NCBI GenBank assembly: GCA_947446815.1
Contig: CANFGT010000004.1
Span: 1-64,000, forward strand
Origin: Acidimicrobiaceae bacterium
GTDB taxonomy: Bacteria > Actinomycetota > Acidimicrobiia > Acidimicrobiales > Ilumatobacteraceae
Reading direction: 5' to 3'
Length of the DNA stretch: 64,000 bases
The notes below the pieces were generated by a model. The model was not told the DNA's origin, ran no database searches, and saw nothing but the letters and a program-made list of their open reading frames with translations. A program made the position numbers and the translations under genes. This document shows positions 3,794 through 10,419 of the stretch, piece by piece (positions within the stretch are counted from its first letter, which is position 1; the number at the start of each line of letters is the position of its first letter).

Positions 3794-3810
3794 GTTCACA
3801 CACCGTTCAC
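3794..3810. promoter_or_regulatory. 11-bp-spaced direct repeat, GlnR/PhoP-box-like
   Basis: GTTCAC occurs at 3794-3799 and again at 3805-3810, exactly 11 bases apart (one helical turn). OmpR-family regulators such as PhoP (GTTCACC repeats) and GlnR (five-base boxes separated by six) bind this kind of spacing. It sits between the divergent acyl-CoA dehydrogenase and the winged-helix/antiporter genes. Similar repeats precede glnK at 6809 and the second amt at 8721. The regulator assignment is inference. Confidence 0.45.
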
Positions 3811-3855
3811 AAGGGGCGAACAGACCCGAAAACTGGCCTGCGTACCGTGAGAGCC

Positions 3856-4146
3856 ATGGTGGATATGGAAATTTCAGGCGACAGCCGTCCGACCCCTTTA
3901 GATATAGAGGTGCTCCGCATCCTCATTGCTTCGGCAGGCAAGATCGTGGGACGCGACTTCATTGCCCGCCAATCGGGACTGGACAGCACTTCGGCCCGAC
4001 GCGTTGACGCTTCGCTTGTCGCTATTCGCCGTTGGCTGGGGGCCGACGTGTTGGTCACCGTTCGCCGTCGTGGCTGGATGCTGACTTCTGAGGGGCACTC
4101 CGCCGCCGAGGCTTTCCTGCGCCAGCAGGTAGACACTCCACAGTGA
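3856..4146 (+). CDS. stand-alone OmpR-type winged-helix protein
   Basis: A 96-residue protein made almost only of a winged-helix DNA-binding domain of the OmpR/PhoB C-terminal type: LDIEVLRILIASAGKIVGRD (first helices), ARRVDASLVAIRRWLG (recognition helix region) and VLVTVRRRGWML (the wing strand, normally TVRGxGY). No receiver domain or phospho-acceptor precedes it. ATG 3856 was used; GTG 3847 is possible. Its TGA overlaps the GTG of the antiporter gene as GTGA, so the two are coupled. The 11-bp repeats just upstream are the kind of site such a domain binds, so autoregulation is plausible (inference). Confidence 0.65.
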   Translation: MVDMEISGDSRPTPLDIEVLRILIASAGKIVGRDFIARQSGLDSTSARRVDASLVAIRRWLGADVLVTVRRRGWMLTSEGHSAAEAFLRQQVDTPQ

Positions 4147-6806
4147 TTTCTTCAATTCTCGCTTCCAGTGAAGGACTCGACTTCGGTCAAATCTTTACGT
4201 CGCTCGCACTTGTTTTGGTTCTGGCAAAACTCGCCGCAGAATTGTGTGAACGCGTTCGCATACCGGCCGTCCTTGGCGAGATCACTGCCGGCATCATCGT
4301 TGGTCCTTCCATGTTGGGAATTGTTGAGCCCAGTGATGCGCTTCGTGTTCTTGCAGAAGTAGGCGTCATCATCCTCTTAGCCGAGGTGGGTCTTGAGATG
4401 GACCTCAACGAATTACGTCGAGTCGGCCGTGCCTCCATGTTGGTTGCAATTCTTGGTGTTGTTTTTCCCATGTCCACTGGCGTGTTGGCGGGGACTGCGC
4501 TTGGCGAATCACTCAACGCATCACTCTTCCTTGGTGCAGCACTGGCGGCAACAAGCGTTGGTATCACTGCGCGTGTCTTTGGCGACTTAAAGGCTCTCGC
4601 GTCTACAGAAGCGCGCATCGTGTTGGGCGCAGCTGTCGCAGACGATGTTCTCGGCCTCATCATTCTCACTGTTGTCACACGCATTGTTGAACAAGGTTCG
4701 ATTGATGCAGTTGGCCTCATCAGCACCATCGGACTTGCAGTTGGTTTCCTTGTCGTTGCCGGCGCTATCGGGCTGTTGCTTGTTCCAAGAATTCTCAAGT
4801 TCATTGGCGCAAAGGCAGCATCACCAGCAACAATCGGCGTTGTTGCTGCAGGTATAACTTTCGGATTCTCTGCTGCCGCAAGCGGTGCAAAACTCGCGCC
4901 GATTATCGGTGCCTTTGTCGCTGGTACAGCGTTGGCACGTACAGAGCATCACGATCGCATTGCTCGCGACTTCTCCGTTCTCGGCAGCATCTTCATCCCC
5001 GTGTTCTTTATGCAGATTGGTGTCGACACTGATGTCACGAAGTTCTTCTCTGCGCATGTTCTGATCGTTGCGGGAATCCTCACCACGATTGCGATTGTTG
5101 GCAAAGTGCTGGCAGCGGTTGGAGCACGCGGAACCAACACCGACAAATTGCTCATCGGTATCGGCATGATTCCGCGCGGCGAGGTGGGTCTCATCTTCGC
5201 AACAATTGGTGTATCCATTGGCGTTTTCCACGAAGACCTCTACGCCGTTGTGCTCCTCATGGTTCTTCTCACCACCATCATCACTCCACCGCTTTTGCGT
5301 TGGAGAATTGAGTCCGGTGGCGCAGCACTCGAAGACATTGAAGTTCTAGAAGTGACCGAAGAACCGGTTGGCGGATGGATTCGTCTGATTGACAATGAAG
5401 TGCAATTGCACGGAACGCCACCGGCGTCACTGACACTTGCACTCACATTGGAAGCTGCACTGCTTGCAACACAAGCGCAGCCCAACGGTGCACTGCTGGA
5501 TTGGGCCCATGCCAACCGCAATGAACCACTGACATGGACACCCGAAACAACTCAGCAATTGCTGGAAGTTCTCTTACGTGGAAACTCTCGTTCATGGCGA
5601 TTCCTTGAAATCACCAGTGTGATCGAACGCGCACTTCCCGAAATTTCTTCTGCTCTGCGCTCTCGTCGTGGCGAGACCACAGAACTTGACCCTACGCATA
5701 TGGTGCAGATGCCGATTGTCGAAAGTCTTCGAAAGAAGGGTGCACGCGCAGTCGCAGAGGATTGCAGTCTTCTTCTTGCAGGATTAATTACCGACTTCTC
5801 CGATACCGGCGACATCTCACCATTTATTGATCGTCTCGTACTCACCGATTCCGTCCGTGGAGAGATTCGTTCATTAGTACTTGCGTCTTCTCTTCTGCAT
5901 TCGGCATGCACAACAGATCCATACGAACCGAATCAGAGAGTGCTTGCACAACTGGCTGACTTCCTTGGAACACCACTCATGGTGGAGAAGTGCCGCATGC
6001 TCACCGAAGCACGTGGCGGTATGCAGGATTTCGAATACTCCATCCTCATTGACATCACCACTTCGGTGCAGGGCTTGCTGGCCCACCCAGAGTTGATTGA
6101 AGGAATTGAGAACTCCCTTGAATCAGTACGTCGCCGCGATGCCATTTCACTAACAGAAGATCCATTGGTCATTGAGCGCATTCAACATGCAGCCGCTGTG
6201 TATGTATTGGCTCATGAGCCAGAAACCATTGTTCGACATGCCTCGTTGGTTGAACCAGCTCCTCGCAGCCGAACCGTTCGCGTCAACGTTTACGGCACTC
6301 CTGTCGCCAACGAATGGGAAGTAGATATTGCGACGCGTGACATGCGCGGCTTGCTTGCTCGCATCTGCGCCACACTTGCTGATCGAGGTCTTGAAATCAT
6401 CGATGCGGATCTTGCAACATGGCCTGACGGTGCAGTTCTTGACTCATTCAAGATTCGTTCCGTACAAAAGCCCAGCGCAACACAGATCTCCTTCGACTTG
6501 GAACAACGATTGCGCAAGCGCATCGAGAATCCTCGCCGCCTTGCTCGTGGCACCAAGAACAACATCACTTTTGCCTTGGACAATGAAGCACATCCTTGGC
6601 ACAGCGTGGTGTTGGTGCGTGGCGCAGACCAGCCCGGATTCATTCAGGCTGTTGCTGCAGCTTTCGCACGAGCAAACATCAATGTTCATCACGCAAAGAT
6701 CACAACAAGTGGTGGCGAAGTGGCAGATCGCTTCGAAGTCTCCACGCGACATGGTCGCAAGATCAGCGACCAGGCACTTCGCCGCGTGAGTGCTCTTCTC
6801 TCGTAG
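4143..6806 (+). CDS. CPA2 cation:proton antiporter fused to a GlnD-like degenerate HD and double ACT region
   Basis: An 887-residue protein. Residues 1-390 form about 12 membrane helices of the CPA2 (Kef/GerN-type) family, with IPAVLGEITAGIIVGP near residue 40 and the paired aspartates of AVADDVLG at 167-168, as in ion-coupled antiporters. Residues about 480-690 look like the HD domain of the P-II uridylyl/adenylyltransferase GlnD, but the metal histidines are gone: LITDFSDTG at 548-556 stands where GlnD has LLHDIGKG. Two ACT domains follow (about 720-775 and 820-885), ordered as in GlnD, where they bind glutamine. No nucleotidyltransferase motif is present. No KTN/TrkA_C domain is visible. 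It lies between a winged-helix gene and glnK-amt. I infer a glutamine- or nitrogen-gated K+/Na+ antiporter. Confidence 0.85.
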   Translation: MISSILASSEGLDFGQIFTSLALVLVLAKLAAELCERVRIPAVLGEITAGIIVGPSMLGIVEPSDALRVLAEVGVIILLAEVGLEMDLNELRRVGRASMLVAILGVVFPMSTGVLAGTALGESLNASLFLGAALAATSVGITARVFGDLKALASTEARIVLGAAVADDVLGLIILTVVTRIVEQGSIDAVGLISTIGLAVGFLVVAGAIGLLLVPRILKFIGAKAASPATIGVVAAGITFGFSAAASGAKLAPIIGAFVAGTALARTEHHDRIARDFSVLGSIFIPVFFMQIGVDTDVTKFFSAHVLIVAGILTTIAIVGKVLAAVGARGTNTDKLLIGIGMIPRGEVGLIFATIGVSIGVFHEDLYAVVLLMVLLTTIITPPLLRWRIESGGAALEDIEVLEVTEEPVGGWIRLIDNEVQLHGTPPASLTLALTLEAALLATQAQPNGALLDWAHANRNEPLTWTPETTQQLLEVLLRGNSRSWRFLEITSVIERALPEISSALRSRRGETTELDPTHMVQMPIVESLRKKGARAVAEDCSLLLAGLITDFSDTGDISPFIDRLVLTDSVRGEIRSLVLASSLLHSACTTDPYEPNQRVLAQLADFLGTPLMVEKCRMLTEARGGMQDFEYSILIDITTSVQGLLAHPELIEGIENSLESVRRRDAISLTEDPLVIERIQHAAAVYVLAHEPETIVRHASLVEPAPRSRTVRVNVYGTPVANEWEVDIATRDMRGLLARICATLADRGLEIIDADLATWPDGAVLDSFKIRSVQKPSATQISFDLEQRLRKRIENPRRLARGTKNNITFALDNEAHPWHSVVLVRGADQPGFIQAVAAAFARANINVHHAKITTSGGEVADRFEVSTRHGRKISDQALRRVSALLS

Positions 6807-6808
6807 CC

Positions 6809-6827
6809 GTTTACACAGCGTTTACAC
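6809..6827. promoter_or_regulatory. 11-bp-spaced direct repeat upstream of glnK
   Basis: GTTTACAC at 6809-6816 is repeated exactly at 6820-6827, an 11-base period. It begins two bases after the antiporter stop and lies in the 154-base gap before glnK, so it is well placed as an operator for the P-II/ammonium operon. It has the same geometry as the repeat at 3794. The binding protein could be GlnR, PhoP or the small winged-helix protein at 3856 (inference). Confidence 0.45.
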
Positions 6828-6942: not shown

Positions 6943-8650
<1,708 letters not shown>

Positions 8651-8664
8651 ATAATCACAACCAG

Positions 8665-8706
8665 AAGACCCGCGTCAACCACTTCGGTGGGAGGCGCGGG
8701 TCTTTT
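8665..8706 (+). terminator. intrinsic terminator after glnK-amt
   Basis: A 10-base stem, AAGACCCGCG at 8665-8674 paired with CGCGGGTCTT at 8695-8704, encloses a smaller CCAC/GTGG hairpin and is followed by a short T run. It begins 14 bases after the amt stop and separates the first glnK-amt operon from the second. Confidence 0.85.
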
Positions 8707-8720
8707 GCTTTGTCCCCTCA

Positions 8721-8747
8721 TTCACCAACTGGAAACAATTACGAAAC
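8721..8747. promoter_or_regulatory. GlnR-box-like triplet upstream of second amt
   Basis: TTCAC (8721-8725), GAAAC (8732-8736) and GAAAC (8743-8747) are separated by exactly six bases each. Known actinobacterial GlnR boxes have the form GTnAC-n6-GAAAC repeated, so this is a close match. It lies 50-76 bases upstream of the amt start. Binding by GlnR is inference; no glnR gene is in the window. Confidence 0.5.
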
Positions 8748-8796
8748 AAAGCACTTCTACGGTTAGGGCCACCTGACAGCCGACCAAAGGACTTTT

Positions 8797-10047
8797 ATGT
8801 TTTTCGCAGCCGACATCGATACCGGAGCAACAGCCTGGGTATTGGTTTCCATCGCAATGATCGCCTTTATGACACCAGGTCTTGCCTTCTTTTATGGCGG
8901 CATGGTCCGGTCGAAGAATGTGCTCGGCATGTTGATGCAGAACATCTTCGCTATGGGCATCATCTCAGTGCTGTGGGCGATGGTGGGCTTCAGTCTTTCC
9001 TTCGGAGGTGACGGTAAGTACTTCGGCAACTTTGACTTCGCGTTCATGAAAAACCTCACCAACATCACGCACGTGCCCGGCTACACAGGCGACTTCGCGT
9101 TGGCAATTCCTGTTCTCGCATTCTTCGCATTCCAGATGATGTTCGCCGTCATCACTCCTGCGCTCATTACGGGCGCAACAGCAGATCGTCTGAAGTTCTC
9201 TGCGTACGCAATTCTCATTGGTGTGTGGGCTGTCATCGTTTACCCCACAGTTGCGCACTGGGTGTTTAGCCCTAATGGTTGGTTGTTCAAGCGCGGTGCA
9301 CTCGACTTCGCCGGTGGCGCAGTGATTCATGTCAACGCCGGCGTTGCGGCACTCGCAATCGTTTTGGTGATGGGCAATCGCAAAGGCTGGCCCCGCGAAG
9401 CAATGCCACCGCACAACTTGCCATTCACCGTGCTCGGTACTGGCATCTTGTGGTTTGGCTGGTTCGGTTTCAATGCTGGTTCTGCATTGGCAGCAAATGG
9501 TCTTGCAGCACAAGCTGTTGTGAACACTCATCTCGCAGCAGCTGCAGCAATGTGCGGTTGGCTTGTTGTTGAAAAGTTGAAGGCTGGCCACGCAACAACA
9601 CTTGGTGCAGCATCCGGTGCCGTCGCTGGTCTTGTTGCCATCACACCATGTGCCGGTTTTGTCGGCGGTATGTCCCCCATCTTCATCGGACTCATCGCAG
9701 GCGTTGTCTGCTACCTCGCTCTCACGCTCAAGACAAAGTTCGGATTCGACGACAGCCTTGATGTCATCGCAGTGCATCTTGTTGGCGGCATCCTTGGCGC
9801 GATCCTTCTTGGCTTCTTCGCAGACGTGAAAGTCAACTCGCTCGGCTTCGACGGTTTGTTCTTCGGTGGCGGTACAGAACTACTGCAAGATCAACTTGTT
9901 GCTCTTGGTGCCACCATCGTCTTCTCGTTCAGCATCACATGGGTGTTGGCAAAGGTTCTCGACCGCACCATTGGTTTGCGCGTCTCGACCGAACATGAAC
10001 TCGTGGGACTCGACCAAAGCCAGCACGCGGAATCCGCATACCAGTGA
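8797..10047 (+). CDS. amt: ammonium transporter (second copy)
   Basis: A 416-residue Amt protein that is only moderately similar to the first. It starts MFFAADIDTGATAWVLVSIAMI and has TPGLAFFYGGMVRSKNVL, DFAGGAVIHVNAG (pore His), WFGWFGFNAGSALA and SLDVIAVHLVGG (pore His). The pattern is closer to typical bacterial AmtB than the first copy is. AAAGGA lies upstream of ATG 8797. The P-II gene follows 33 bases later, so gene order is reversed compared with the first pair. Confidence 0.96.
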   Translation: MFFAADIDTGATAWVLVSIAMIAFMTPGLAFFYGGMVRSKNVLGMLMQNIFAMGIISVLWAMVGFSLSFGGDGKYFGNFDFAFMKNLTNITHVPGYTGDFALAIPVLAFFAFQMMFAVITPALITGATADRLKFSAYAILIGVWAVIVYPTVAHWVFSPNGWLFKRGALDFAGGAVIHVNAGVAALAIVLVMGNRKGWPREAMPPHNLPFTVLGTGILWFGWFGFNAGSALAANGLAAQAVVNTHLAAAAAMCGWLVVEKLKAGHATTLGAASGAVAGLVAITPCAGFVGGMSPIFIGLIAGVVCYLALTLKTKFGFDDSLDVIAVHLVGGILGAILLGFFADVKVNSLGFDGLFFGGGTELLQDQLVALGATIVFSFSITWVLAKVLDRTIGLRVSTEHELVGLDQSQHAESAYQ

Positions 10048-10062
10048 CCACTACTTCTCTAG

Positions 10063-10419
<357 letters not shown>

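Follow-up and report, generated by a model that had tools for sequence, protein, structure and literature searches.

A NapA-type antiporter with a GlnD-derived tail encoded beside glnK and amt in an Acidimicrobiaceae genome

Introduction

Why should a membrane antiporter encoded next to the genes for ammonium uptake carry what looks like the sensory half of a nitrogen-signalling enzyme? This question is raised by the 64,000-nucleotide stretch of an Acidimicrobiaceae bacterium genome that was analysed here (contig CANFGT010000004.1 of assembly GCA_947446815.1, positions 1 to 64,000, hereafter the window), in which the open reading frame (ORF) at 4143-6806 on the forward strand starts with GTG and encodes a single protein of 887 amino acids. 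An earlier inspection of the letters of this DNA (the original prediction) had proposed that the protein joins a CPA2 transporter to the part of GlnD, the uridylyl- or adenylyltransferase of P-II, that follows its nucleotidyltransferase. Our sequence comparisons establish that the fusion is genuine, that its tail descends from GlnD and has lost the HD site while the ACT2 loop and the transport residues are kept, that the gene is linked to ammonium transporter (Amt) genes, and that the fusion survives in genomes where no P-II was found. We read the protein as a putative NapA-type Na+/H+ antiporter that would be modulated by an amino acid, most likely glutamine, binding to the pseudo-GlnD tail. 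We assign this reading a probability of roughly 0.55, the ligand, the gating, its sign and the choice of Na+ being the parts that we infer.

Results

Architecture of the fusion protein

The Pfam family Na_H_Exchanger matched residues 24-385 (E 6.5e-61, 206.7 bits against a curated cut-off of 26.2) and the ACT family matched two stretches (E 1.3e-15, the best at residues 822-885), whereas the middle of the protein, residues 396-709, matched no Pfam family. The overall layout is an antiporter at residues ~14-390 followed by the C-terminal part of GlnD at ~405-887 (linker, HD, ACT-ACT); the nucleotidyltransferase half of GlnD is absent and the antiporter occupies its place. Since 29 full-length relatives, all from other genomes, could be aligned, the fusion is neither a chance event nor the product of a single bad assembly. 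An AlphaFold model of the tail reached a mean predicted local distance difference test (pLDDT) value of 85.4 and a predicted template modelling score (pTM) of 0.77. The features of the fusion are as follows.

4143-6806, forward strand: antiporter-pseudo-GlnD fusion of 887 amino acids; its GTG start overlaps the stop of a winged helix-turn-helix (wHTH) gene
4182-5312, forward strand: NapA-type transport domain, residues 14-390 (Pfam; D167, D168 and K321 the same in 29/29 aligned rows)
5355-6095, forward strand: GlnD-type linker and degenerate HD domain, residues ~405-651 (hhalign E 8.8e-14; HD residue counts; model m2998eb6b1935)
6096-6278, forward strand: helical connector to the ACT pair, residues ~652-712 (predicted helices)
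6279-6512, forward strand: ACT1, residues ~713-790 (Pfam and tail model)
6567-6797, forward strand: ACT2, residues ~809-885, with the DxxG loop D829/G832 (Pfam, tail model and residue counts)

Descent of the tail from GlnD

For profile-profile comparison with hhalign we built two alignments, one of 67 tails and one of 38 GlnDs of relatives. Tail columns 11-489 (residues ~406-885) aligned with GlnD 299-769 at an E-value of 3.7e-32, and the order linker-HD-ACT-ACT was colinear. The ACT part alone matched GlnD at 4e-24, and the middle region alone matched the linker-HD stretch of GlnD at the E-value listed above, while a control comparison of the middle region with the N-terminal half of GlnD (1-290) gave an E-value of 0.46. 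When genomes of the class and phylum were searched with a HMMER profile built from 28 tails (A3), it produced three matches that cover most of the tail (L211-L213; 5.0e-61, 3.7e-56 and 2.7e-55) and that are GlnDs of other actinobacteria; we regard them as true GlnDs because their N-terminal halves match the GlnD of the source genome. The latter is a normal GlnD, encoded in addition to the fusion, with an HD domain recognised by Pfam (7.5e-11) and scores above two NCBIfam GlnD cut-offs. The NCBIfam GlnD models reach the window protein at ~672-883 only, which is the ACT end, and in three fusions of genus g4 the model TIGR01693 extends back to model position 486-497.

Based on these comparisons we conclude that the tail is a descendant of GlnD. 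The hhalign comparison and the HMMER tail profile agree in this respect with the original prediction of a GlnD-like half, for which a KTN or unrelated fold of the middle region had been named as the competing outcome: the middle region matched GlnD by profile, and no RCK or KTN family matched over the tail in searches of Pfam to E 10 and of NCBIfam to E 1. No GlnD was present among the Foldseek or VIA matches listed, and given that phmmer at E 0.01 found no solved relative of the genome's GlnD, the tail would provide a way into GlnD structure.

Decay of the HD site and conservation of the ACT loops

The five metal-binding positions of the HD domain (H, HD, H, D) were assigned from what we take to be the HD motif. 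All 38 GlnD rows keep H418, H446, D447, H488 and D529. Among the 67 tails, a His was found at the position of H418 in one, of H446 in four and of H488 in two, and an Asp at the position of D529 in none; the Asp at the position of D447 (D551 in the window protein) is kept in 63. Counted per tail, one of the five residues is kept in 58 tails, none in 3 and two in 6, which means that 61 tails keep at most one. Judged by these counts the HD site looks dead in the tails, and the surviving Asp at the D447 position may have a structural role. The histidine loss named in the original prediction is correct (T550 in the window protein), but the neighbouring D551 is retained. Both predicted ACT domains are present, with their DxxG loops largely kept. 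In the ACT2 loop D829 is found in 66/67 rows and G832 in 65/67; in the ACT1 loop D733 is found in 58/67 (Asn in the other 9) and G736 in 55/67. From their sequences the loops look usable.

Transport domain and predicted ion

Among solved structures, the family profile matched NapA best (9.5e-92), KefC being far weaker (1.6e-14). Residues A136, T137, S138, D167, D168 and K321 are invariant in the 29 aligned fusions, and residue 139 is Val or Ile. According to passages of PMC6181914, electrogenic exchangers are recognised by an Asp at motif position 6 together with a Lys at position 8, and a non-polar residue at position 4 accompanies Na+-selective CPA2 proteins; passages of PMC11150392 give the ion-site motif of KefC as QD. 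When motif positions are assigned to fusion residues by our own mapping, D167, D168 and K321 follow the electrogenic rule (Asp-Asp at positions 6-7, Lys at 8) in 29/29 rows, and in place of the QD and the Thr at position 4 that are typical of Kef the fusion has DD and Val or Ile at 139. The motif therefore predicts electrogenic Na+/H+ exchange, the ion being more probably Na+ than K+. The original prediction had named K+ or pH, and its K+ part is at odds with this NapA-like site (A136-T137-S138-V/I139, D167-D168, K321), which predicts Na+/H+. Because some CPA2 members move NH4+, an ammonium-carrying antiporter is a possible alternative reading of the substrate.

Linkage to ammonium transport genes

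As had been predicted, the fusion lies beside glnK-amt genes, which in the window form the arrangement glnK-amt-amt-glnK at 6961-10419.

6961-7299, forward strand: glnK, P-II protein
7301-8650, forward strand: amt, first ammonium transporter (start inferred)
8797-10047, forward strand: amt, second ammonium transporter
10081-10419, forward strand: second P-II gene

The generality of this arrangement was assessed at 126 loci, of which 101 rows were left when a match to the transmembrane (TM) part of at least 45% identity over more than 200 residues, starting by residue 60, was required and identical TM parts were merged. For the residue counts, the loci and the tree, rows were merged only when their sequences were the same; close relatives are therefore counted separately, and draft bins are frequent among the rows. 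A full tail is present in 74 of the 101 antiporter rows, and of these 52 have Amt within 6 kb and 39 have P-II within 8 kb. Of the full-tail loci, 46 are well covered, with 3 kb ahead of the TM match and 4.5 kb behind it. Among these, 35 have Amt within 6 kb, 26 have P-II within 8 kb, and 27 have ACAD, the usual neighbour in the synteny block of the window; ACAD was scored within 2.5 kb only, so that L049 and L051 were missed with ACAD just beyond the limit. The corresponding values for the controls, NapA-type antiporters that have no tail and come from elsewhere (25 of 35 loci, by title chiefly of other phyla), were 1/25 for Amt and 0/25 for P-II; the queries were the Amt and P-II of the window, and diverged copies may escape them. 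Amt was still present in 12 of the 19 loci scored without ACAD, or in 10/17 if L049 and L051 are set aside. Both the difference from the controls and the presence of Amt without ACAD indicate that the tie to ammonium transport is real and outlasts the synteny block of the window, in line with the neighbourhood link to nitrogen genes that had been anticipated.

Distribution among genomes

Some match was obtained in 190 of the 199 genomes searched (the source genome included), many of these matches being other antiporters or GlnDs. Full fusions top the match list down to ~40% identity and represent several families within the order. The tail profile adds fusions from further families of the class (f62, f70, f71, f73 and f78), and outside the class the fusion was found in two genomes of one family, f100 (L205 and L206). 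The named relatives are mostly Acidimicrobiia, Ilumatobacteraceae or Actinomycetota bins; the few under other taxa are probably mislabelled. A free-standing pseudo-HD/ACT-ACT protein of 470 amino acids is also encoded outside the class (L207, 7530-8942, reverse strand), with no match to Amt, P-II or an antiporter within its 18-kb stretch.

Natural variants of the fusion

Eight antiporters end just past the membrane part, an example being L115, which is ~87% identical to the window protein there. On a tree of 99 of the 101 rows the label for these tail-less proteins (TMonly) changes five times, and its rows are nested among full-length rows, which suggests that the tail-less antiporters arose by about five losses. 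In the same labelling, the rows without ACT comprise nine rows of one clade, L224 and L161, and seven rows at contig ends were labelled as truncated; the ACT part of L161 lies in a second ORF and may reflect a frameshift. Amt and P-II are near seven of the eight tail-less antiporters, L066 being without them. If the tail-less forms still work, repeated loss of the tail implies that transport is independent of it, as would be the case for a regulatory add-on.

The nine-row clade (L067, L068, L069, L070, L072, L074, L075, L171 and L172) has a pseudo-HD remnant of 192-196 amino acids and no ACT. When the tail profile was run on 12 such ACT-less tails (two of them duplicates) in a 20-sequence search, 10 matched with E-values between 1.7e-7 and 8.8e-6, and those of L069 and L077 were not reported. 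Amt is near 8/9 rows of this clade and P-II near 6/9. The converse arrangement is seen in L125 (genome G045, 7656-9110), where the tail stands alone, with no antiporter, between a wHTH gene and a complete GlnD gene followed by P-II and Amt. This suggests that the tail may have arisen from a copy of GlnD at an amt-glnK-glnD locus.

The genera g4 and g6 are represented by 13 genomes that are 83-98% complete. Among these, P-II was found in 0/13, GlnD above the cut-off in 0/13, and Amt in 11/13. The fusion is intact in seven (G036, G060, G061, G089, G099, G110 and G111), is either divided between two ORFs or interrupted by the end of a contig in G076 and G100, and was not found in four (G034, G075, G088 and G120). 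Whole genera thus seem to have dropped the P-II system. Since the fusion is intact in 7/13 genomes in which neither P-II nor GlnD was found, the tail seems useful without either, and P-II does not seem obligatory.

Discussion

Comparison with known systems

To our knowledge NapA has no cytosolic sensory tail, and plant ACR proteins are neither transporters nor equipped with a pseudo-HD region. NapA, the Thermus Na+/H+ antiporter (PDB 4bwz), shares with the fusion the transport domain and the ATSV/I, DD and K motif, but its solved chain has 394 residues. GlnD has the linker, the HD region and the ACT-ACT pair in the same order, whereas the fusion has no nucleotidyltransferase half, has lost the HD site and is attached to a membrane transporter. 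The ACT repeats of plant ACR proteins, which parts of the literature on them liken to GlnD, likewise occur without a recognisable catalytic domain. Judging by parts of PMC11150392, the best mechanistic analogue is KefC, an RCK-gated K+/H+ antiporter (PDB 8bxg), which is also a CPA2 protein with a metabolite-binding C-terminal tail; its tail is however an RCK domain with AMP and glutathione and its K+-selective site is QD, whereas the fusion has a GlnD-derived tail and DD plus K. CPA2 antiporters with gating tails (Kef-RCK) are thus already known, but no antiporter with a GlnD-derived tail was described in the literature that we searched, which agrees with the earlier statement that no described case of this fusion was known to its author.

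Proposed mechanism and alternatives

The fusion would work as an electrogenic NapA-type Na+/H+ antiporter, probably dimeric as NapA and KefC are. Its cytosolic tail is a GlnD without nucleotidyltransferase and HD active site that would have kept the sensing function alone. An amino-acid signal, glutamine being the first candidate in view of the descent from GlnD, would bind the ACT pair and shift the pseudo-HD/linker block relative to the transport domain, and this shift would brake or release exchange, as the RCK tail does in KefC. The survival of the antiporter after repeated loss of the tail points to a modulating tail, which probably acts as a conditional brake in the manner of KefC, and the survival of the tail where P-II was not found makes the signal best seen as a small molecule. 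Synthesis beside P-II and Amt would match ion and pH traffic to ammonium uptake and assimilation. The more specific proposal that a retired GlnD gates the transporter directly, so that ion exchange responds to glutamine or a closely related nitrogen signal without P-II, is one that we put forward tentatively, at somewhat less than even odds. If these ideas are correct, ion and pH homeostasis are tied to nitrogen status within a single protein, the family exposes a route from a signalling enzyme to a pure sensor, and in g4 and g6, with no P-II and no GlnD found, the fusion would be the last GlnD-type sensor, with nitrogen status read directly at the membrane. The natural variants (antiporters without the tail or without ACT, the tail by itself, and fusions in genomes lacking P-II) would then help to dissect ligand sensing by GlnD-type ACT pairs.

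Several observations weigh against amino-acid modulation through a GlnD-derived tail. The ACT-less clade keeps its Amt neighbour, and control in that clade cannot run through ACT. The glycine of the ACT1 loop is Ala in 12/67 rows. When a hidden Markov model (HMM) of GlnDs from close relatives was run on 20 isolated tails it matched none, which leaves the middle region visible only to the tail profile or to profile-profile comparison. With a pTM of 0.59 (pLDDT 82.0), the AlphaFold prediction for the whole protein does not settle how the tail and the membrane domain are arranged. Among the 19 well-covered loci at which no ACAD was scored, seven lack an Amt gene within 6 kb (families f62, f71, f73 and f78), and several genomes of the source genus and family gave no fusion match, which makes the distribution patchy.

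These points have to be set against three other explanations. The tail could be an amino-acid gate for another ligand (for example a branched-chain amino acid, arginine, serine or threonine), the linkage to Amt then reflecting general nitrogen economy; the descent from GlnD specifically and the Amt linkage itself argue against this, and we consider this variant unlikely, if still worth keeping in mind. P-II is a substrate of GlnD, and the pseudo-GlnD tail might accordingly serve as a docking site through which the P-II from the next gene gates the antiporter. The frequency of P-II at the well-covered loci relative to the controls fits this idea, as do the ACT-less rows that still lie beside P-II, whereas the intact fusions of g4 and g6 exist in genomes where no P-II or GlnD was found, and in families other than f1 the fusion often has Amt but no P-II as its neighbour. 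As an account of the whole family we therefore judge docking improbable, while in part of the family it could still hold. Finally, the clean and repeated loss of the tail would also be expected of a structural relic that aids dimer stability only and gates nothing. The conserved ACT2 loop, the retention of the tail across several families and one outside the class, and the free-standing tail beside GlnD, P-II and Amt in L125 speak against a relic, which we regard as improbable as well.

The winged-helix gene and upstream repeats

The following features lie upstream of the fusion gene and of glnK.

3794-3810, forward strand: PHO-box-like direct repeat GTTCAC-N5-GTTCAC, upstream of the wHTH and antiporter genes
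3847-4146, forward strand: small winged-helix protein (OmpR/PhoB-type effector domain) of 99 amino acids (Trans_reg_C, E 2.2e-4)
6809-6825, forward strand: PHO-box-like direct repeat GTTTAC-N5-GTTTAC, upstream of glnK

The tiny winged-helix gene had been noted before as overlapping the start of the fusion; indeed, its TGA stop overlaps the GTG by 4 bases, and its Trans_reg_C match (21.7 bits) is below the Pfam gathering cut-off of 26.2. No receiver domain was seen in this protein. By tblastn, the wHTH gene adjoins the antiporter in 51 of the 97 rows whose upstream sequence reaches 450 bases or more. The repeat was counted in the same set: with at most one mismatch, it is present in 39/97 upstream regions, namely in 33/51 with the wHTH gene and 6/46 without it.

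The pattern GTTYAC-N5-GTTYAC has two exact matches in the window against 0.04 expected, and five exact sites in the whole genome against two for the pattern read backwards. Two further sites (G000:C3:139949 and C3:142946) precede pstC and pstS of a pstCABS operon, of which PstC, PstA and PstB score over their NCBIfam cut-offs and PstS below; the fifth site precedes an unrelated-looking gene. Portions of PMC4415409 describe the PHO box of S. coelicolor as 11-nt repeats with the core GTTCACC and report that PhoP binds the amtB promoter in that organism. Considering this report and the repeats that the antiporter/glnK locus has in common with the pst operon, a PhoP-type regulon may include both the antiporter and glnK. 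The shared repeats also point to cross-regulation between phosphate and nitrogen.
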